Positions 6,343 to 17,581 of a DNA stretch of 45,957 nt are shown here, in pieces (position 1 is the stretch's first letter; each line of letters starts with the position of its first letter). Source of the stretch: Deltaproteobacteria bacterium (GTDB lineage: Bacteria > Myxococcota_A > Polyangia > JAAYKL01); the NCBI GenBank assembly GCA_028713995.1, contig JAQTNF010000024.1, positions 1 to 45,957 on the forward strand, given 5' to 3'. Made by a program: the position numbers and the translations under genes. The notes beneath the pieces were generated by a model. It saw only the letters and a program-made list of their open reading frames with translations, had not been told where the DNA came from and made no database searches.

Positions 6343-7687
6343 TCAGTCCGAGAGCTTGAGAACGAAGATGTCTTGCTCCCCGGAATATGCGTGGAGTGGG
6401 CTCTCTCCCCCAGGACCGACCCAGGATGCAGGAGAGAATCCCGTCGCGTGGATGTCCACGCTTTCGTCCACAGCAAGAGAGTAGCCGTAGTCGCCATCGG
6501 CCCCGCCATAGAAGGTGTGCCACTGATACGCACCGCTCGACGACAGTTTCAGTATGAAAATGTCTTCCCCCAACGAATATGCGTGGAGCGGGCTCTCTCC
6601 TCCGGAGCCAGTCCAGGACGCCAGCGAACTCCCCATTGCGTAGATGTTCCCGCCCCCGTCCACGGCGATGGCGTCGCTGGTGTCGCTGCTGGAATCCCCA
6701 TAGAACGTGTGCCACTGGTACGCGCCACTCGATGAGAGCTTTAGAACGAACATGTCGTATCCCCCGGCGTGTGCGTGGAGCGGGCTCTCTCCCATAGGCC
6801 CCATCCAAGGCACGTTGGAGACACCCGTCACGTGGATGCTCCCGCTCCCGTCCACAGCGGTGGAGACGCGATTATCGGTGCCGGAACCCCCGTAGAAGGT
6901 GTGCCACTGATAGGCGCCGCTCGACGAGAGCTTCAGTACGAGAATGTCGCTTCCACCTGAGTGGAGGTGGATCGGGCTCTGTCCCCCGGGGCCCATCCAG
7001 GCCACGCCGGAAGCACCTGTCACGAAAATGCTGCCGCTCCCGTCCACGACAAGTGAGCTGCCCGCATCGTCACCGGAACTCCCGTAGAAGGTGTGCCACT
7101 GGTACACACCGCTCGGCGATAGCTTCAGTACGAAAACGTCGCTCCCTTCGGAGTATGCGTGGAGCGGGCCCTCTCCTGCGGGCCCCACCCACGACGCGTC
7201 GGAGTGACCCGTCACATGAATGTTCCCGCTCCCGTCCACGGCTATTGAAGCGCCCCAGTCGAAGATGGCCCCCCCGTAGAACGTGTGCCATTTGTATGCG
7301 CCGCTCGATGAGAGCTTCAAAACGAAGATGTTGCTCCCTGTGGAATGCGCGTGAAGAGGGCTTTCTCCGGCGGGACCTGTCCAAGACTTCCAGGAGTAAC
7401 CTGTCACGCAGATGTTCCCGCTCCCGTCCAGGGTAAGGAAGAAGCTGCCGTTGTCTGCGGAACTCCCGTAGAAGGTGTGCCACTGGTACGCGCCGCTCGA
7501 TGAAAGTTTCATTACGAAAATATCCTCTCCCCCCGAATATGCGTGGAGCGGGCTCTCTCCGCCGGGGCCCATCCAGGATGCCCTGGACGAGCCTGTCACG
7601 TAGATGCTCCCGTTCCCGTCCATGGCGATGGAGTGGCCGAAATCGCCGGACGAGCTCCCGTAGAACGTGTGCCACTGGTACGCGCCC
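6343..7687. repeat. seven tandem repeats of about 192 bp
   Basis: The motif GTAGAAxGTGTGCCA (encoding WHTFY on the minus strand) recurs roughly every 190 bases from 6515 to 7675. Each recurrence marks one propeller blade. High DNA-level similarity between units makes blade gain or loss by recombination possible. Confidence 0.75.
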
Positions 7688-8040
7688 GCGCCGGTGTCCG
7701 TGTCGCTGTCGGCATCACCATCGGTGTCGCCATCGGTGTCCGTGTCCGCATCGGTGTCAGCATCCGCGTCCGCATCGGTGTCGGAATCCGAATCCGAATC
7801 ACCGTCCGTGTCTCCGTCCGTATCCATGTCGCCGTCTGCGTCAGAATCGGCGCCGGAATCCGAGTCCGTGTCCGAGTCCATGTCCGAGTCCGTGTCCGAA
7901 TCTGTGTCCGTGTCCAAATCCGAGTCGGCATCGCCGGACGAGTCTCCCGCAGCATCCACGACTTCGTCGAGCGGACCCACGTGCCAGCATCCGCACACTG
8001 CGAGCGCGAGGAGCAACGCGAGAACACGGACCATGATCAC
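6343..8040 (-). CDS. SBBP-type seven-bladed beta-propeller lipoprotein with Asp-Ser linker
   Basis: 565 residues. A lipoprotein signal (lipobox VCGC, Cys18) is followed by an acidic linker of about 90 residues made of Asp-Ser, Asp-Thr, Asp-Ala and Asp-Gly dipeptides (about 28-118). Then come seven tandem copies of a unit of about 64 residues, each beginning Tyr-Gln/Lys-WHTFYG, then [13 protein letters not shown]-like, WxGPxGESPLHA and [11 protein letters not shown]. The pattern VDGSGNIYVTG with a DIFVLKL strand is the SBBP beta-propeller repeat, and seven copies would close one propeller. The likely site is the cell surface, held away from the membrane by the charged linker; the ligand is unknown. 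It is divergent from the winged-helix/nucleotidyltransferase pair and lies between the two tRNA scars. A decayed copy of its signal-peptide region lies at 17.6 kb. An upstream in-frame ATG pair makes the exact start uncertain by two codons. Confidence 0.8.
7689..7955. repeat. hexanucleotide-period tract encoding an Asp-X linker
   Basis: About 40 six-base units of the kind GTCCGA, GTCGGC, GTCCGT and GTCTGC encode alternating Asp and Ser/Thr/Ala/Gly. Codon choice varies between units, which argues for some age, but the strict period makes in-frame length variation likely. Confidence 0.75.
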
Positions 8041-9626: not shown

Positions 9627-10175
9627 TCAGTGGACGATCTTCACTTCGACCACCTCCGCATCGGGAGCGGTCTGGAACCACTTGACGATAACGGCCATCT
9701 CCTTCTCGATGTCCTGTCGCTCCTTCGATCCTTCCGGCAGCGCGCGCGACTTGCCCTTCATTACGCGGAAGGCGGCACCTTTGTCGTCGGCGAGCTTGGT
9801 CAGCTTCGCCTCCACCTGCTTGCCGTTGCCCTCGGCGGTGAGCACGAGGCGGTGGTCGTCCCGATCCTCCACCGTGAGAGTACGGCCGCCGTACGTCGTC
9901 CCCACGGCCACCTGGATGCCGTCCACCGGGCAGGAGAGATCGTAGTACGCGGCCATGAGCTTGCCCTCGCCGCCCGCCTTCAGCAGCGCAGCCTTTGCGG
10001 CGAGCCCGATCCTCGCACCCATCACGGAGCCGAGGCAAAGATCTCCGTGAAACGCCTTGAGCCGCTCCCAGAGATCGGGCGACGGGTCTGCGCCACGGGC
10101 AGGAGCCGCGATGGCGGCCATGAACACGAGGCCCGCGAGGGCGGCGAAGGCGCGTGATATTCTGGTTCGAGACAT
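9627..10175 (-). CDS. exported FmdE-domain protein
   Basis: 182 residues. The start at 10175 is preceded by GGAGG five bases upstream. A Sec signal peptide (residues 1-29, ending APARGA) precedes an FmdE-like domain: WERLKAFHGDLCLGSVMGARIG matches the FHGHxCPGxxxGxR entry motif, with Asp replacing the second His, and DLSCPVDGIQVAVGTTYG matches the CxxDxIQxxTGCTxG segment. FmdE-type domains bind metal (zinc in known cases) and often lie beside molybdate or tungstate transport and molybdopterin enzymes. The exported location suggests a periplasmic metal or cofactor role, which is an inference. An ABC-transporter ATPase stump lies upstream on the opposite strand. Confidence 0.75.
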   Translation of the reverse strand: MSRTRISRAFAALAGLVFMAAIAAPARGADPSPDLWERLKAFHGDLCLGSVMGARIGLAAKAALLKAGGEGKLMAAYYDLSCPVDGIQVAVGTTYGGRTLTVEDRDDHRLVLTAEGNGKQVEAKLTKLADDKGAAFRVMKGKSRALPEGSKERQDIEKEMAVIVKWFQTAPDAEVVEVKIVH

Positions 10176-10233
10176 GGGACCTCCAGTAAGTCGGACGGAT
10201 TGGACTATCCTCCATTCACAGCCGAGCCTCAAG

Positions 10234-10407
10234 GCTGGTCGGTCTGTCATCTATGTCGCCCACGATCCGCGCGAGGCGGCGGCGCTGGCGGATCGAGTCG
10301 TGCTGTTGGAGGCTGGCCGGGTCACGCAGACCGCCGATCTCGCGACGTTCATCCGCGAGCCCAAGACGGCATTCGGGCGATTGTTCGCTACGGAGTTCTC
10401 CGCTTGA
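10234..10407 (+). pseudogene. 3' stump of an ABC-transporter ATPase gene
   Basis: 58 codons survive, reading SVIYVAHDPREAAALADRVV then LLEAGRV and ending with a typical ATPase tail. The H-loop His in VAHD and the D-loop-to-C-terminal signature are those of ModC/TupC/PotA-like import ATPases. Walker A, Q-loop and signature motifs are missing, and the frame upstream runs antisense into the FmdE gene. The stump is therefore non-functional. Its stop overlaps the -35 box of the next operon. Confidence 0.75.
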
Positions 10408-10456
10408 CCTCTCAACGACCCCGACATATATAAGCAAGTGCTCACTTTATGTGAGC
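10404..10456 (+). promoter_or_regulatory. sigma70-type promoter with overlapping dyad operators
   Basis: TTGACC (10404-10409), 17 bases, then TATATA (10427-10432): one of the best -35/-10 pairs in the window. Immediately downstream lie AAGTG-CT-CACTT (10436-10447) and the overlapping GCTCAC-TTTAT-GTGAGC (10440-10456). Dyads at the transcription start are typical TetR repressor sites, and a TetR gene is second in the operon. Confidence 0.7.
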
Positions 10457-10473
10457 CATATCGGAGGCAACCA

Positions 10474-11223
10474 GTGGGACGAGCGGAGGAGAAGGCGCGC
10501 TACGGCTATCACGTTCCCCACATGATCCTCGCCGGTTTCGCCGGGGCAGCGGTTCTCGTTTTCGGAGGAGTTCTCCTGATCGCCACGACGGTCAGCTCTC
10601 CGTGGTTCGTGGCCGTAGCCGTCACATGTTTCGCGGCGGGCGCGGTGCTCATCGCGCTCACGTCGAGCCTTCTTTGGCTGGTCGTCCTCGGGCGACCGCT
10701 CGCCATGGAACACATGCTCGACGCAATCACCTGGACGGGCAACGAACGGATCCTCGACGTCGGCTGCGGTCCTGGGCTCGCCCTCGTCGGCGCCGCCAAG
10801 CGGCTCACAACGGGCCGGGCGGTCGGCATCGACAAGTGGATGGTGATCCACGGCGAGCGCCACAACTCCAGGGAGATCGCACTGGAGAACGCCCGTATCG
10901 AGGGAGTCGCGGACCGCGTCGAGGTCCAGGACGGCGACGCGAGCGCGATGCCGTTCGATGACGGCTCGTTCGATGTCACGATGTCGAGCTTCGTCTTCCA
11001 CCATATGACGAAGGAGGTCCGCCTCCGGTCGCTCCGGGAGATGGTGCGGGTGACCAAGCCAGGCGGGAGAATCCTGATTGCCGATGATCGCACCGGAGAG
11101 CTGGCAACCGCGCTCCAGGATCTCGACGTGGCCTCCGTCGTCAACCTGAGGCTGATCTTCCCCGTGTACCTGGTCAGCGCGCGCAAGGAGAAACGCCATG
11201 GGACGCAACAAGCAGGTCACTGA
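10474..11223 (+). CDS. membrane-anchored SAM-dependent methyltransferase 1
   Basis: 249 residues from GTG at 10474, chosen for the GGAGG six bases upstream; an earlier ATG lies within the operator. Two transmembrane segments (about 17-38 and 45-72) precede a class I methyltransferase domain with motif I ILDVGCGPG (93-101), an acidic motif II region (VGIDKW), an MPFDDGSFDVTMSS motif IV region and VRVTKPGGRILI as the post-motif strand. The substrate is unknown; small-molecule methylation at the inner membrane is the simplest reading. Its end overlaps the TetR gene by 26 bases. A second, non-identical membrane-anchored methyltransferase follows the TetR gene. Confidence 0.85.
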   Translation: MGRAEEKARYGYHVPHMILAGFAGAAVLVFGGVLLIATTVSSPWFVAVAVTCFAAGAVLIALTSSLLWLVVLGRPLAMEHMLDAITWTGNERILDVGCGPGLALVGAAKRLTTGRAVGIDKWMVIHGERHNSREIALENARIEGVADRVEVQDGDASAMPFDDGSFDVTMSSFVFHHMTKEVRLRSLREMVRVTKPGGRILIADDRTGELATALQDLDVASVVNLRLIFPVYLVSARKEKRHGTQQAGH

Positions 11224-11800
11224 CGAAGCCGTGCTGAAGGCCGCGAGGGAAGCCTTCGTCGAGTTGGGGTTCGGAGCCTCCACCCGCGAGATTGCGCGCC
11301 GTGCCGGGGTGTCCGAGGCGGTCCTCTTCCAGCGGCACAAGACCAAGCTCGATCTCTTCTTCGCGGCGATGATCCCGCCGCCGATAGCGTTCGCGGATGA
11401 GCGGGGCACCGGACGGAAGCGGAGCGCCACGACGGAGGTCGAAGCGCTGGCCGTCCAGATCATGAAGTACTTCCGAGAGGCGATGCCCGTGCTCATGCAG
11501 CTCGTCATGCACCCTTCGTTCAACCTCGCCGACCTCGCGGATCGCGAGACGCGCCTGCCGCTCCATCGACTCGGCGAGGCGGTCTCGGCGTGCCTCGAAC
11601 GGCACCGGGTTGCGGGCGCGATCACGGCGGACTCCAGGCGTGTCCGGACGGCGACGTTGACGCTCCTCGCGACCCTGCACAGCCTGGCGCTGTTCGAACG
11701 CATGGGGCTCCACGGCGGATCATTCCCGAACACGGCGATCAAGAACGTCGTGGGCCTGGTCGTCGATGGACTGTCCGCGGAGAAAGGGCGTGGGAGATGA
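11198..11800 (+). CDS. TetR/AcrR-family transcriptional regulator
   Basis: 200 residues, ATG with AAGGAG upstream. The N-terminal helix-turn-helix occupies about residues 10-55 (FGASTREIARRAGVSEAVLF), with the family's usual VSEAVLFQRHKTKLDLFF transition to the ligand domain. The C-terminal ligand-binding domain is all-helical. It lies inside the operon it probably represses; the dyads at 10436-10456 are the obvious target. It overlaps methyltransferase 1 by 26 bases and methyltransferase 2 by four (ATGA), so all three are translated as a unit. Confidence 0.9.
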   Translation: MGRNKQVTDEAVLKAAREAFVELGFGASTREIARRAGVSEAVLFQRHKTKLDLFFAAMIPPPIAFADERGTGRKRSATTEVEALAVQIMKYFREAMPVLMQLVMHPSFNLADLADRETRLPLHRLGEAVSACLERHRVAGAITADSRRVRTATLTLLATLHSLALFERMGLHGGSFPNTAIKNVVGLVVDGLSAEKGRGR

Positions 11801-12762
11801 AGACCAAGGCACCGCACAGCCACGGGTGGCTCGTCGGAATCGTGGGGCTCGCCGCCGGGATCAGCCTGATGGTGCTCTTCCCCAAGCTCAAGGCGGTCGC
11901 TGGCGTCGTGCTGCTCGTCGCGCTGTTCCACCTCGTCGGGATCGCCGTCGTGCTCGGGTCGCTCGCCTCGTTCGCGCCGCGGAGGTTGGGCCGCTTCATG
12001 GAGAACCCGCGCGGTCGCACCTCGGATGAAAAGGGGTACGACTTCGGCTGGTCGCAGGTAGCGATGAACGGCCATTGGCTCGCGGCGGTGACGCTCTGGA
12101 CCGTTGCGTTCGGCTTGCAGCTCCAGTGGCCCGGGCTCTGGCCGGCCTGGTTCGCCATGGCGCTGATCGGGGTCAACTGCTTCATCGGTGGGCTTCTCCT
12201 GCGCACGTCGAAACGGACAGACTTCGCGTCGCTGCCTCTCGTCGACCTCCTGAGGTCGGACAAAGACCTCGTGCTCGATGCCGGGTGCGGTGGCGGGCGG
12301 ACAACCCTCGCGCTCTCGAAGGTGCTCGGGGGCGGTCGCATCGTCGCGGTCGACCGCTTCGACGCCTACTACATCGACGGCGGCGGGCGCGCCTTGCTCG
12401 AAAGGAACCTGCGCATCGCCGGTCTCACGGAGCGCGTGCAGATCGAGCAGGGAGATCTGACGGCGCTCCCGTTCCCGGAGGCGCACTTCGACAGCGCCGT
12501 GAGCGCCCACGTCATCGACCACCTGAAGCAGCATAAGAGGACCGGGCTCGCGGAGATCTTCCGCGTGCTCAAGCCCGGCGGTCGCTTCCTGATGGTCGTC
12601 TGGGTGCCGGGCCTCGCCACGTTCTCGCTCGCGAACGTCTTCTGCTTCCTCCTGACCTCGAAGGCGGGCTGGCGGAAGCTCGCGCGGGAGGTCGGGTTCG
12701 AGATCCGTGACGAGGGGACGTTCAACGGGATGTGGTTCGCCGTCCTCGAAAGGCCGCGGTGA
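11797..12762 (+). CDS. membrane-anchored SAM-dependent methyltransferase 2
   Basis: 321 residues from ATG at 11797, overlapping the TetR stop (ATGA). Four probable transmembrane segments (about 11-27, 34-58, 94-110, 113-135) precede a class I methyltransferase domain: motif I VLDAGCGGG (159-167), IVAVDRFDAYYIDGGG, TALPFPEAHFDSAVSAHVIDH and IFRVLKPGGRFLMVVW. An N-terminal HSHGW may bind metal. It is related to but clearly distinct from methyltransferase 1 (different number of membrane spans). Two membrane methyltransferases with a TetR switch and a DMT exporter suggest modification and extrusion of a small hydrophobic or metal-containing compound; this is an inference. Confidence 0.85.
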   Translation: MKTKAPHSHGWLVGIVGLAAGISLMVLFPKLKAVAGVVLLVALFHLVGIAVVLGSLASFAPRRLGRFMENPRGRTSDEKGYDFGWSQVAMNGHWLAAVTLWTVAFGLQLQWPGLWPAWFAMALIGVNCFIGGLLLRTSKRTDFASLPLVDLLRSDKDLVLDAGCGGGRTTLALSKVLGGGRIVAVDRFDAYYIDGGGRALLERNLRIAGLTERVQIEQGDLTALPFPEAHFDSAVSAHVIDHLKQHKRTGLAEIFRVLKPGGRFLMVVWVPGLATFSLANVFCFLLTSKAGWRKLAREVGFEIRDEGTFNGMWFAVLERPR

Positions 12763-12769
12763 GCCGGAC

Positions 12770-13819
12770 ATGCCGATGAACCCCATCGCCGTCGGCACCG
12801 CGCTCGCCGCGCTGGCCGCGCTCGCGTTCGGTGTCACGACGCCGTTCATCCAGCGCTTCGGCGAGGGGTTGGGGCCGTTCTCGACCGCCGCGCTGCTGTA
12901 CCTGGGTGCGGCCATCGGCGCCGTCGGCTGGCCCCGTCGCGGAGCGGAGCGTCGTGAGGCGGCCGTTCGCCTGCGGCACCTCCCGCGCCTCCTCACGGTC
13001 GCCTTCTTCGGCGCGGCGCTGGCGCCCACGCTGTTCGCCTGGGGCTTGCAGCGCGTACCCGCGACGTACGGCTCTCTTCTTCTGAACGGCGAGGCGATCT
13101 TCACCGTGGGGCTCGCCGCGCTCATCTTTCGCGAGCACGTCGGCGTCCGCGTCGCGGTGGCCGTGCTGCTCATGTTCGCGGGCGGCGCAGTCACCGTGGT
13201 CGGCGCCTCGTCCGACGGCTCGGTCGGGCTCCTCGGCTCCCTCGCCATCGTGGCCGCAGTCTTCGCCTGGGCGCTCGACAACGTGCTGACGCGGTCGTTC
13301 GCCGATCTCGATCCGGCCGTCGTCATCCGCGTGAAGGCGCTTTGCGGGGTCGTGCTCACCGGTGCGCTCGCCGCGATACTCGGCGAGACCCGTCCGAGCT
13401 GGACGCAGATGGGCGGCCTGCTCCTGTGCGGAGCGACCGGTTACGGATTGAGCCTGCGCCTCTACCTGCTCGCGCAGCGGCGCATCGGCGCGGGCCGGAC
13501 CGGCTCCGTGTTCGCCGTCGCTCCCTTCGTCGGGGCGACGGTCGCGATCCTCCTCGGCGACAAGAGCTTCGGCATCGTCATGGTGGCCGCCACGATCCTC
13601 TTCGCCGTAGGGGTGGTGCTGCACCTGACCGAGAAGCACAGGCACGAGCACGCCCACGACGAGATGAACCACGACCATGCCCACTCCCACGACGACGGCC
13701 ATCACGACCACCACCACGATGTCATGCCGGACGGCCCCCATGCGCACCCGCACCAGCACGATGTCCGAGTGCACGCGCATCCGCACGGGCCCGACGCCCA
13801 TCACGGGCATCGCCACTGA
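12770..13819 (+). CDS. EamA/DMT-family transporter with histidine-rich C-terminal tail
   Basis: 349 residues from ATG at 12770, seven bases after the preceding stop. Ten hydrophobic segments in two EamA halves follow the drug/metabolite transporter layout (AALAFGVTTPFIQRF in TM1, PATYGSLLLNGEAIFT and later GSVFAVAPFVGATVAILL). Residues about 285-349 form a cytoplasmic tail with 25 His and many Asp, including DHHHD and HAHPHQH clusters, a plausible Ni/Co/Zn/Cu-binding sensor or buffer. His-rich tails are common on metal transporters but not typical of DMT permeases. It is last in the methyltransferase-TetR operon and is the likely exporter of that system. Confidence 0.85.
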   Translation: MPMNPIAVGTALAALAALAFGVTTPFIQRFGEGLGPFSTAALLYLGAAIGAVGWPRRGAERREAAVRLRHLPRLLTVAFFGAALAPTLFAWGLQRVPATYGSLLLNGEAIFTVGLAALIFREHVGVRVAVAVLLMFAGGAVTVVGASSDGSVGLLGSLAIVAAVFAWALDNVLTRSFADLDPAVVIRVKALCGVVLTGALAAILGETRPSWTQMGGLLLCGATGYGLSLRLYLLAQRRIGAGRTGSVFAVAPFVGATVAILLGDKSFGIVMVAATILFAVGVVLHLTEKHRHEHAHDEMNHDHAHSHDDGHHDHHHDVMPDGPHAHPHQHDVRVHAHPHGPDAHHGHRH

Positions 13820-13867: not shown

Positions 13868-16579
13868 ATGATGGGGACGACCTCAACCAACCTTCGGCTC
13901 ACCCCCCGTCTGACGCCCCATGGCCGCCTGCTGCTCTCGTCGTCGGACGACGCTCCCGAGCTCGAGCGGGCGCTCGGCGAGCGCCTCCGAGAGGCCTTTG
14001 ATCGCGGACACGGGCATGGGCTGCTCAGGCTGGGAGCCGCCGAGGTCGGCCAGGTCCTCCCGCCGGTCTTCGCCTACTGGCGCGAGCTCGGCGGCCGCTT
14101 CGCCACGGCGCTGTGCACTCGGCCCGACATCGAGGAGCGTGAGGTCGAGCCGCCGCCGCCGCCGGAGGACCTGGATGCGCTCGCCGCCGCCGCTCCGTTG
14201 ATGCCCGGCGCCGAGTACCTGACGGTCGATGTCCTGCGCGCGCTCTGGACGGGAATCGGCGAGGCCTTCACCACCGAGCTGGCCGACACCAAGACCACGG
14301 TTCAGGACTTCCTCAAGCGCCTGAGCCCGGCCTGGAACGTCGTCGGGCGGGTGCACTTCAACCTCGCCGAGAACCGCAAGGACGAGCAGGCGCCCTTCGC
14401 CTTCCTCGCGACTTACACCCATCGCCTCTCGGCGCACGGCAAGGCCCAGCACATCCCGCTCGGTCAGGCCCTGCGCGAGTACGCGGGCGCGGCGAACAAG
14501 GAGCGGCTTCTGTCGCTCCTGCTCCCGGTGCAGCGCGCGGCCGAACGCTGCGCGTGGCTTAAGGCAATGGTCGACGCGGGCGAGGTCTTCCATCCGCTGC
14601 GCTGGTCGCCACAGGAGGCCTTTCGTTTCCTCGGTGACGTATCGGAACTGGAGCGCGCGGGGGTCGTGGTCCGCATGCCCACGAGCTGGAAAGCGGGTCG
14701 GCCATCCCGGCCGCAGGTGACGGCCACCGTTGGAGCCAAAGCCCCGTCCGCGCTGGGGAGAGATGCGTTGCTCGACTTTCGTATGGAGGTCACGCTCGAC
14801 GGTGGCCGGCTGACCCCCGGCGAGGTGAAGGAGATCCTGGCCGGCACGAACGGTCTCGCCCTCATCCGCGGCCAGTGGGTCGAGGTCGACCGCGAACGGC
14901 TCGAACGGATGATGGATCGCTTTGAGGAGGCCGAGCGGCTCGCGGCCGCGGGTGGGCTTTCGTTCGGCGAAGCCATGCGAATGCTCGCCGGAGCGGACGT
15001 CACAAAGCGCGGAGCCGCGACCGGCGTCGATCCCGACTGGTCCCGCGTCATCGCGGGGACGTGGCTCGCCGAGACCCTGAAGGGGCTTCGCTCGCCCGAA
15101 GAGCTCGAAAAGATCGATCCGGGGCGCAAGCTGCGCGGCACCTTGCGGCCCTACCAGCATGTCGGGGTTCGCTGGCTCCACCTGCTCTCAAGGCTCGGCC
15201 TCGGGGCCTGTCTCGCCGACGATATGGGCCTCGGCAAGACCATCCAGGTCCTGTCGCTGCTTCTCGTTCGGCAAGGCGAGCCGGATGGCAGGCGACAGCC
15301 GAGCCTGCTCTTGGCTCCGGCCTCGCTGCTCGCCAACTGGGCCGCGGAGATCGAACGGTTTGCACCTGGGCTCAAAGCCGTGATCGCGCATTCCTCGGCC
15401 ATGCCGGCCGACGAGCTCAAGACCATCGACCCCGAGAAGCTCGCCGGGGTGGATCTCGTCATCACGAGCTACGGCTCGCTCCTGCGCATCCCCTGGCTGG
15501 CGACCACCTCGTGGCGTCTCGTGGTTCTCGACGAGGCCCAGGCGATCAAGAATCCCGACGCAAAGCAAACGCGAGCGGCAAAGAATCTCAAGGCGCAGGC
15601 GCGGATCGCGCTCACCGGCACACCCATCGAGAACCGGCTCGGCGACCTGTGGTCGATCTTCGACTTCATCAATCCGGGGCTGCTCGGTTCGGCCAAGGAG
15701 TTCACGGGGTACACCAAGCACCTCGCGGACAAGCCGCACAACCCATACGGCCCGCTGCGCGACCTCGTGCGTCCGTATATCCTGCGGCGCCTCAAGACCG
15801 ACAAGACCGTCATCTCGGATCTGCCCGACAAGACCGAGGTCAAGGCCTTCTGCCAGCTCAGTCGCAAGCAGGTCGCGCTCTACCAGCAGGCCGTCAAAGA
15901 CCTGGCCGAACAACTCGGGGACGCCGATGGCATCAAGCGCAGGGGGCTGGTGCTCGCCTTTCTCATGCGCTTCAAGCAGATCTGTAACCATCCCTCGCAG
16001 TGGCTGGGCGACGGAGCCTGGGCCGAGGACGACAGCGGCAAGTGGGCCCGCCTGCGCGAGCTCGGCGAGGTGATTGCGGCCAAGCAGGAGAAGGCGCTCG
16101 TCTTCACCCAGTTCCGCGAGGTGACTGCGCCCTTGGCATCTTTCCTCGGCGGCGTGTTCGGCCGCGCCGGGCTCGTTCTTCACGGCGAGACCGCGGTCAA
16201 GAAGCGCACGGATCTGGTCAAGCGCTTCCAGGAGGATGAGTCGGTGCCGTTTTTCGTGCTGTCGCTCAAGGCCGGCGGCTCGGGGCTCAACCTCACCGCG
16301 GCCTCGCACGTGATCCACTTTGATCGCTGGTGGAACCCGGCCGTCGAGAACCAGGCCACAGACCGCGCGTTCCGCATCGGGCAGACGAAGAACGTGTTGG
16401 TCCACAAGTTCGTCTGCCGGGGCACCGTCGAGGAGAAGATCGACGCGCTCATCGAATCGAAGAAGCAGCTATCCAAGGAGATGCTCGAAGGCGGCACCGA
16501 GCTGAACCTGACCGAGCTCAAGGACGAGGAGCTGCTCAAGCTCGTCGCTCTCGACCTCAACGCAGCGATGAAGGAGTGA
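13868..16579 (+). CDS. SNF2-family DNA-dependent ATPase/helicase
   Basis: 903 residues. The N-terminal half carries the bacterial SNF2-associated region (about 255-380; FLGDVSELERAGVVVRMP, then LALIRGQWVEVD). The ATPase core has Walker A DMGLGKT (452-458), DEAQ box (555-558), the TGTPIENRLGDLWSIFDF segment, and helicase C motifs ending in RAFRIGQ (833-839). All catalytic motifs are intact. Bacterial SNF2 proteins translocate on DNA or remodel transcription complexes. The immediately following SWIM zinc-finger gene, three bases away, is a frequent genomic partner. No strong ribosome site precedes the ATG at 13868, and the second ATG (13871) is an equal choice. Confidence 0.9.
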   Translation: MMGTTSTNLRLTPRLTPHGRLLLSSSDDAPELERALGERLREAFDRGHGHGLLRLGAAEVGQVLPPVFAYWRELGGRFATALCTRPDIEEREVEPPPPPEDLDALAAAAPLMPGAEYLTVDVLRALWTGIGEAFTTELADTKTTVQDFLKRLSPAWNVVGRVHFNLAENRKDEQAPFAFLATYTHRLSAHGKAQHIPLGQALREYAGAANKERLLSLLLPVQRAAERCAWLKAMVDAGEVFHPLRWSPQEAFRFLGDVSELERAGVVVRMPTSWKAGRPSRPQVTATVGAKAPSALGRDALLDFRMEVTLDGGRLTPGEVKEILAGTNGLALIRGQWVEVDRERLERMMDRFEEAERLAAAGGLSFGEAMRMLAGADVTKRGAATGVDPDWSRVIAGTWLAETLKGLRSPEELEKIDPGRKLRGTLRPYQHVGVRWLHLLSRLGLGACLADDMGLGKTIQVLSLLLVRQGEPDGRRQPSLLLAPASLLANWAAEIERFAPGLKAVIAHSSAMPADELKTIDPEKLAGVDLVITSYGSLLRIPWLATTSWRLVVLDEAQAIKNPDAKQTRAAKNLKAQARIALTGTPIENRLGDLWSIFDFINPGLLGSAKEFTGYTKHLADKPHNPYGPLRDLVRPYILRRLKTDKTVISDLPDKTEVKAFCQLSRKQVALYQQAVKDLAEQLGDADGIKRRGLVLAFLMRFKQICNHPSQWLGDGAWAEDDSGKWARLRELGEVIAAKQEKALVFTQFREVTAPLASFLGGVFGRAGLVLHGETAVKKRTDLVKRFQEDESVPFFVLSLKAGGSGLNLTAASHVIHFDRWWNPAVENQATDRAFRIGQTKNVLVHKFVCRGTVEEKIDALIESKKQLSKEMLEGGTELNLTELKDEELLKLVALDLNAAMKE

Positions 16580-16582
16580 CGG

Positions 16583-17581
16583 ATGTCGCGATACGACTAC
16601 TATAACTACGGTTGGAGGCCCTACGTGTCCGTGGCCGAGCGGCGGCGCAAGGCCGAGCGCGAGATGCAGAAGCTCAGGAAGAAGGGCCACCCGGTGTCGC
16701 CGGTGGAGATCGAGGGCCGCACCATCGCCCGGACCTTCTGGGGCAAGGCCTGGTGCGACAACCTCGAGCGCTACAGCGATTACTCGAATCGCCTGCCTCG
16801 CGGCCGCACATATGTACGCAACGGTTCGGTGGTCGACCTCCAGATCGCCCCCGGCGAGGTCAGCGCCCTGGTCAGCGGCTCGGAAATCTACAAGGTCTCG
16901 GTGAAGGTATCGACCGTGCCAAAGGCGCGCTGGACCTCGATCTGCACCGATTGCGCGGGCGCGATCGACTCGCTGGTGGAGCTGCTGCAAGGGCGCTTCT
17001 CCAAGGGGGTCATGGAGCGCATCTGCCGGCAGAAGACCGGACTGTTCCCTCAGCCTTCCGAGATCCGGTTCTCGTGCAGTTGTCCGGACTGGGCCTCGAT
17101 GTGCAAGCACGTCGCGGCCGTGCTCTACGGCATCGGCGCCCGGCTCGACGAGTACCCCGAGCTGCTCTTCAAGCTGCGTGAAGTCGATGAGAAGAACCTC
17201 ATCGCCAAGGCGGGCAAGGGGCTGCCGTTGTCCAAGAAGGGACCAGCGAAAGAGAAGGTTCTGGCCGGCGACGACCTGTCGGAGCTGTTCGGGTTGGAGA
17301 TGGGCACAACCGAGCCCCGTCGCGCCAAGCCGAACCGGGCCGCGGAAAAGAACCCGCCCAAACGCGCGGACAAGAAGCCGGACCGCGCACCGAAGAGAGC
17401 CGAAGCCGCCGCGCCCGCGAAGAAGAAAAAGCGCGTGGTGAAGGACTATCCCAAATGCGCCTATCCGGGCTGCGACCGGAACCGCTTCGTCCGCGGCAGG
17501 GGCTTCTGTGGCCTTCACTGGAAGATGTGGATGGATGGCCGGATCAGTGACGCGAGTCACTACCACAAGCAGGAATGCTGA
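16583..17581 (+). CDS. SWIM zinc-finger protein, partner of SNF2 ATPase
   Basis: 332 residues beginning three bases after the SNF2 stop, so surely co-transcribed. The conserved N-terminal half includes ARTFWGKAWCDNLERYSDY and SRLPRGRTYVRNGSVVDL-like segments common to bacterial SWIM proteins. The SWIM motif CxCx6CxH is at Cys165, Cys167, Cys174 and His176. A Lys/Arg/Pro-rich linker (about 235-285) leads to a second Cys/His cluster (CAYPGC at 292-297 and FCGLH near 310) that probably binds another zinc and resembles small DNA-binding fingers. Likely role: DNA or nucleic-acid recruitment factor for the SNF2 motor. Confidence 0.85.
   Translation: MSRYDYYNYGWRPYVSVAERRRKAEREMQKLRKKGHPVSPVEIEGRTIARTFWGKAWCDNLERYSDYSNRLPRGRTYVRNGSVVDLQIAPGEVSALVSGSEIYKVSVKVSTVPKARWTSICTDCAGAIDSLVELLQGRFSKGVMERICRQKTGLFPQPSEIRFSCSCPDWASMCKHVAAVLYGIGARLDEYPELLFKLREVDEKNLIAKAGKGLPLSKKGPAKEKVLAGDDLSELFGLEMGTTEPRRAKPNRAAEKNPPKRADKKPDRAPKRAEAAAPAKKKKRVVKDYPKCAYPGCDRNRFVRGRGFCGLHWKMWMDGRISDASHYHKQEC

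Follow-up and report, generated by a model that had tools for sequence, protein, structure and literature searches.

A TetR-controlled operon of Myxococcota with membrane-anchored methyltransferases and a histidine-tailed DMT exporter: a possible methylate-and-export module

The 45,957-nucleotide stretch of DNA analysed here (the window) contains four overlapping or abutting open reading frames in one direction, which encode a class I SAM-dependent methyltransferase (MT1), a TetR-family regulator, a second class I methyltransferase (MT2) and a DMT/EamA-family protein with a histidine-rich C-terminal tail (Table 1). Their sequence strongly supports a single transcription unit, and we tentatively interpret it as a self-regulated, TetR-repressed resistance module that methylates a compound and exports it, a reading to which we give slightly less than an even chance. 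The tight coupling described in the original prediction is present in full, with overlaps of 26 nt between MT1 and TetR and of 4 nt between TetR and MT2, and a gap of 7 nt before the DMT gene. The start of MT1 had been placed at 10438; it is most likely the predicted GTG at 10474, which follows a GGAGG ribosome-binding site.

Table 1. Positions of the operon, its control elements and neighbouring features (window coordinates unless a locus is named)
Feature	Position	Strand	Details
Asp/Ser/Thr/Gly-rich protein	6343-8040	-	long stretch, then ~60-residue repeats (AYQWHTFYG... units)
FmdE-family protein	9627-10127	-	PF02663 1.2e-22; signal-peptide-like start; divergent from operon
ABC transporter ATPase C-terminal end (KAGRSVIYVAHDPREAAALADRVVLLEAGRV...)	10231-10407	+	rest of gene missing
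Promoter	10404-10432	+	-35 TTGACC 10404-10409, 17-nt spacer, -10 TATATA 10427-10432
Predicted TetR operator TAAGCAAGTGCTCACTTT	10431-10448	+	overlaps end of -10; 15/16 to consensus
Second dyad GCTCAC-5-GTGAGC	10440-10456	+	from the original prediction; no conservation
MT1 ribosome-binding site GGAGG	10463-10467	+	6 nt upstream of GTG 10474
MT1	10474-11223	+	249 aa class I SAM-dependent methyltransferase; PF08241 2.3e-18
TetR-family regulator	11198-11800	+	200 aa; PF00440 1.1e-9
MT2	11797-12762	+	321 aa class I SAM-dependent methyltransferase; PF08241 1.1e-17
Predicted His-tailed DMT (EamA) exporter	12770-13819	+	349 aa; PF00892 3.5e-25
His-rich C-terminal tail of DMT	13625-13816	+	24 His in 64 residues
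SNF2-DUF3670 helicase and second gene	13868-17581	+	directly downstream of DMT
MT2 C-terminal stump before intact His-tailed DMT	L126 4860-4968		remnant in G084

The linkage of these genes is not private to this genome, since a single scan across 84,980 species genomes with MT1 as query recovered one relative, in a groundwater Myxococcota MAG (locus L017), where all four genes stand in the same order with identities of 62% (MT1), 72% (TetR), 82% (MT2) and 83% (DMT). Upstream of the operon, L017 has other genes than the window, so that conservation of the unit does not depend on its neighbourhood. Searches with MT2 in a sample of 284 Myxococcota genomes revealed TetR-MT2-DMT without MT1 in two members of a different family, G117 and G243 (loci L028 and L029), whose products are respectively 67 and 69% (TetR), 80 and 79% (MT2) and 37-38% (DMT) identical to those of the window. 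TetR-MT2-DMT is therefore the predicted core and MT1 an accessory gene. The expectation that the genes would co-occur in other genomes is thereby borne out, for all four in L017 and for the core in G117 and G243. In the searches as run, which lay nearly all inside Myxococcota, the operon was recovered in just four genomes, with one additional remnant. The latter is found in G084, a sister of G117, where the DMT gene is preceded by LPIRDEVAFNGSWFAVLERPR-stop, matching the MT2 C-terminus IRDEGTFNGMWFAVLERPR; this stump implies that the DMT was retained after the loss of TetR and the greater part of MT2, and hence that it does not need MT2 in order to persist. G047 has MT2 and TetR as a diverged pair (31 and 36% identity) and no DMT with them.

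A tree of 48 His-tailed DMTs falls into two groups (support 100/100), one holding the proteins of the window and L017 and the other those of G117 and G243. The same TetR-MT2 pair precedes DMTs of both groups, which implies that MT2 either stayed with, or re-joined, a His-tailed DMT. This bears on the alternative of a loose assembly, in which TetR and MT2 would form a self-contained pair and the DMT would be a co-transcribed passenger exporting metal. While the G047 pair and the absence of MT2 from most genomes having a His-tailed DMT favour such an arrangement, in operons with DMTs of either clade the gap or overlap at each junction amounts to a few bases, and we consider it quite unlikely.

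With regard to the origin of the operon, searches of further genomes from the family to which the window belongs returned no MT2, and the family's relatives of the downstream SNF2 gene are not accompanied by the operon. These patterns fit a putative horizontal gain beside the truncated end of the ABC ATPase gene. A plasmid origin was rejected, as no match among plasmid records reaches 80% coverage of MT2, and a phage origin likewise, as the DMT has no match in phages. The ABC ATPase fragment adjoins the promoter on its upstream side and overlaps the -35 element with its stop codon, and the nearest other genomic copies are just 36-40% identical to it. On the downstream side, the gene following the SNF2 helicase reads as SWIM-type zinc-finger-like, with no Pfam match. 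Relatives of this SNF2/SWIM-like pair were also observed in G092 (L102), where a half-length outer-membrane efflux gene and a His-tailed DMT follow closely downstream; their proximity to such a DMT in both genomes may be coincidence or may reflect a shared island.

The control region was originally described as a near-ideal promoter with two overlapping dyads. The -35 element matches five of six consensus positions and the -10 element four of six, with a 17-nt spacer, and a strict consensus promoter scan did not call it. Footprinting of the three related operons (L017, L028 and L029) nonetheless shows TTGAC[ACG] followed 17-18 nt on by a TATA-like box in all three, and this recurrence supports the promoter despite the scan; we regard it as acceptable, short of near-ideal. 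One of the two dyads is conserved, namely that with the consensus TAAGYnnGTGCTyrCTTA, which overlaps or lies directly behind the -10 element in 4/4 operons and scores 14-16 of 16 positions in the three related ones, shuffled controls reaching at most 13. The other, GCTCAC-5-GTGAGC, is absent from L017, L028 and L029 and was rejected as an operator. The conserved motif was additionally found at 13-15/16 upstream of eight relatives of the regulator elsewhere in Myxococcota (L131, L132, L133, L136, L139, L140, L145 and L148), several times as a near-perfect palindrome (e.g. TAAGTGTGTGCTCACTTA), and was absent from four others examined (L030, L135, L137 and L142). Together with its TetR_N domain (PF00440), the dyad operator predicted at its own promoter identifies the regulator as a TetR-family member. 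In the 4.98 Mb genome containing the window the 17-base core pattern of the operator has a single exact match, and sites with two mismatches are rarer than those of a reversed-pattern control; the TetR is therefore most likely a predicted local autorepressor of the operon. The proposal of an inducible-type, TetR-controlled operon thus gains from a predicted operator conserved in four operons and from linkage outside this genome. Elsewhere, relatives of the TetR adjoin OEP-HlyD-RND operons or FtsX/ABC exporters, and the RND pumps among these match general multidrug-type RND models wherever a model passed its limit.

Both methyltransferases contain a PF08241 domain with an intact SAM-binding motif I (LDVGCGPG in MT1 and LDAGCGGG in MT2), which places them in class I, and each is the best other match of its partner within the genome (33% identity). 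Two membrane helices had been predicted for MT1 and four for MT2. Hydropathy agrees for MT1, which has two hydrophobic N-terminal helices, and gives three strong ones for MT2; four long helices ahead of the Rossmann domain appear in an AlphaFold model of MT2 of low confidence (pLDDT 53 on a 5-sequence alignment), which is too poor for comparing folds. Beyond the generic class I core neither protein reaches any curated function model. Their top NCBIfam profiles are ArsM-type, at 62.6 and 48 bits against a cut-off of 510 (NF041537) and at 45.2 bits against 263 (NF008823), and these models rank high because of the shared class I core. ArsM enzymes have three or four metalloid-binding cysteines. 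MT1 has two cysteines and MT2 three, one in each lying in the SAM motif, which is too few for such a set, and no TehB or TPMT match was obtained in Pfam at E<=0.01. Accordingly, metalloid methylation by MT1 and MT2 was rejected on curated scores and cysteine content, and the direct methylation of a metal or metalloid put forward in the original prediction finds no support. The corresponding reading of the whole operon, in which a metal or metalloid is methylated in an ArsM-like manner and exported in that form, retains the rank of the ArsM-type models and the metal-associated neighbourhoods of the DMT in its favour, and ArsM operons likewise associate a class I SAM methyltransferase core with metal(loid) resistance; given the unmet ArsM cut-offs and cysteine content, and the N-terminal membrane helices that set MT1 and MT2 apart from ArsM, we judge it very improbable. 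An anti-phage role was also rejected, as MT1 and MT2 match only the methyltransferase part of mad2, and the TetR and DMT match nothing.

Further weak matches of the methyltransferases include UbiE/MenG profiles, far under their curated cut-offs, and PDB structures of phosphoethanolamine and phosphatidylethanolamine N-methyltransferases, which again reflect the generic class I core. Also among the PDB matches of MT1 is Rv0560c of Mycobacterium tuberculosis, which to our knowledge has no membrane helices. Metal-stress membrane remodelling could account for the lipid- and quinone-enzyme matches: the methyltransferases, both predicted to be membrane-anchored, would modify a native lipid or quinone, and the DMT, whose family is linked to metal pumps, would separately export a metal ion or complex in response to the same stress. 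As these matches are generic, and relatives of the TetR adjoin exporters and not lipid genes, we take this to be unlikely.

The exporter belongs to the EamA/DMT family, with two PF00892 repeats scoring 89.3 bits against a cut-off of 28.2. It contains 27 histidines, 24 of them within the last 64 residues, in a tail of the type that defines its relatives (about 23-28 His ending in HxHxHxPDxHHxHxH). The L017 orthologue, at 83% identity, has almost the same tail, and such a tail occurs in nearly all of the 46 loci of the family, the exceptions being one truncated and one frame-shifted read-out, and such conservation places it beyond chance. The originally noted tail of 25 histidines is thus real and conserved, with the count corrected to 24. 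Such DMTs occur in 42 of the 284 Myxococcota genomes sampled, and most of those in the genomes examined lack accompanying methyltransferases. Eleven of 45 copies lie within 5 kb of a CusA/CzcA pump (TIGR00914) where 0.52 would be expected given the number of pumps and the size of the genomes (Poisson P 1e-11). The calculation assumes random placement of genes and independence among related loci; as the latter does not fully hold, this P overstates the surprise. In L110, L107 and L103 the DMT gene has a 4-nt overlap with the pump gene or with the outer-membrane gene belonging to it.

Relatives at about 50% identity, named only 'DMT family transporter' and having the same membrane core and tail ending, are encoded on plasmids of Variovorax, Acidovorax and Ideonella. 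In the first two the neighbouring RND pumps pass the TIGR00914 cut-off, and in Ideonella the DMT lies beside DmeF and a metal-sensitive repressor. Chromate genes also neighbour plasmid-borne His-tailed DMTs, and a more distant relative is found among arsenic and copper genes on a Legionella plasmid. A metal-efflux neighbour is frequent and not universal in the family: none was recognised among the scanned genes flanking the operon in the window, whereas L017 has, downstream of the operon, genes for a membrane protein, a BlaI/CopY-like repressor, an M48/M56 peptidase, an OEP, an adaptor and a CzcA-type pump. The pump proximity, the metal-resistance plasmids and the L017 neighbours together uphold a metal connection of the His-tailed exporter. 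While the metal-linked members of the family are accompanied by RND, DmeF, chromate or P-type ATPase genes, that of the operon is predicted to be co-transcribed with methyltransferases and a TetR gene. The L017 membrane protein (211 aa, L017 9383-10018) stands right behind the DMT and has no Pfam or NCBIfam match. In G259, two His-tailed DMTs about 4 kb apart (L115 4847-10873) lie close to a CusA-type pump and a P-type ATPase, possibly a metal-resistance island.

Precedents for the separate activities are available. In M. tuberculosis, the class I SAM methyltransferase Rv0560c N-methylates a toxic small molecule and so inactivates it, under the control of the ligand-released repressor Rv2887 (PMC5526998); this pair demonstrates that a methyltransferase governed by such a repressor can disarm a toxic compound. 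Unlike the TetR of the operon, Rv2887 is a MarR protein encoded elsewhere, and that system has no DMT. Export of a metal chelator by an EamA protein is exemplified by CntI of Pseudomonas aeruginosa, an EamA/DMT protein ending a metal-linked operon, which exports pseudopaline (PMC5719457). By extension, the methyltransferases could finish a metal-binding molecule, a methylated metallophore, which the DMT secretes. However, the CntI operon is Zur-controlled and includes the biosynthesis enzymes CntL and CntM and no class I methyltransferase pair, while neither CntL/CntM-type nor any other backbone-building gene was recognised in the four-gene operon or the scanned flanking genes; the operon is controlled by a TetR and not by Zur or Fur, and the pumps linked to its DMT family serve efflux and not uptake. 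A metallophore is thus improbable.

Returning to the methylate-and-export module, we propose that the TetR would bind the 18-bp operator overlapping the -10 element and repress its own operon, a step for which there is sequence support, until released by a toxic, lipophilic compound that partitions into the membrane. MT2, anchored via its N-terminal helices, would then methylate the compound at the inner membrane, as its fold and intact SAM motif suggest, joined in some genomes by MT1. The His-tailed DMT, whose tail may bind a transition metal, would export the methylated product or its metal complex. In favour of this reading are the conserved gene order and core, the operator, the exporters beside relatives of the TetR and the ties of His-tailed DMTs to metal pumps; against it count the recovery of the operon in four genomes plus one remnant, the many His-tailed DMTs that come without methyltransferases, the retention of the DMT alone in G084 and the lack of recognised metal genes next to the operon in the window. 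As the most economical way of joining methylation with a metal-associated exporter, our guess is that the compound could be a lipophilic metal chelator or ionophore, methylation masking a metal-binding O, N or S atom. This specific version, in which the methyltransferases mask the chelator or ionophore group and the DMT exports the product, giving resistance to chelator and metal in one regulated unit, we hold to be unlikely as it stands.

No paper naming an arrangement of the TetR-MT2-DMT type was found in the open-access literature, in line with the original view that the combination is undescribed; the operon as a unit is new to the literature searched and its parts are of known kinds. The same literature yielded no functional study of His-tailed DMTs and no relevant paper connecting His-rich EamA proteins to metals or to methyltransferases. 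These DMTs represent an exporter family recurrently tied to CusA/CzcA pumps in Myxococcota and on proteobacterial plasmids, and the operon, with its predicted operator and three-gene core, offers a compact case for finding their substrate. If its methyltransferases act on a chelator or ionophore, it would defend against chelator and metal together, an unusual combination.
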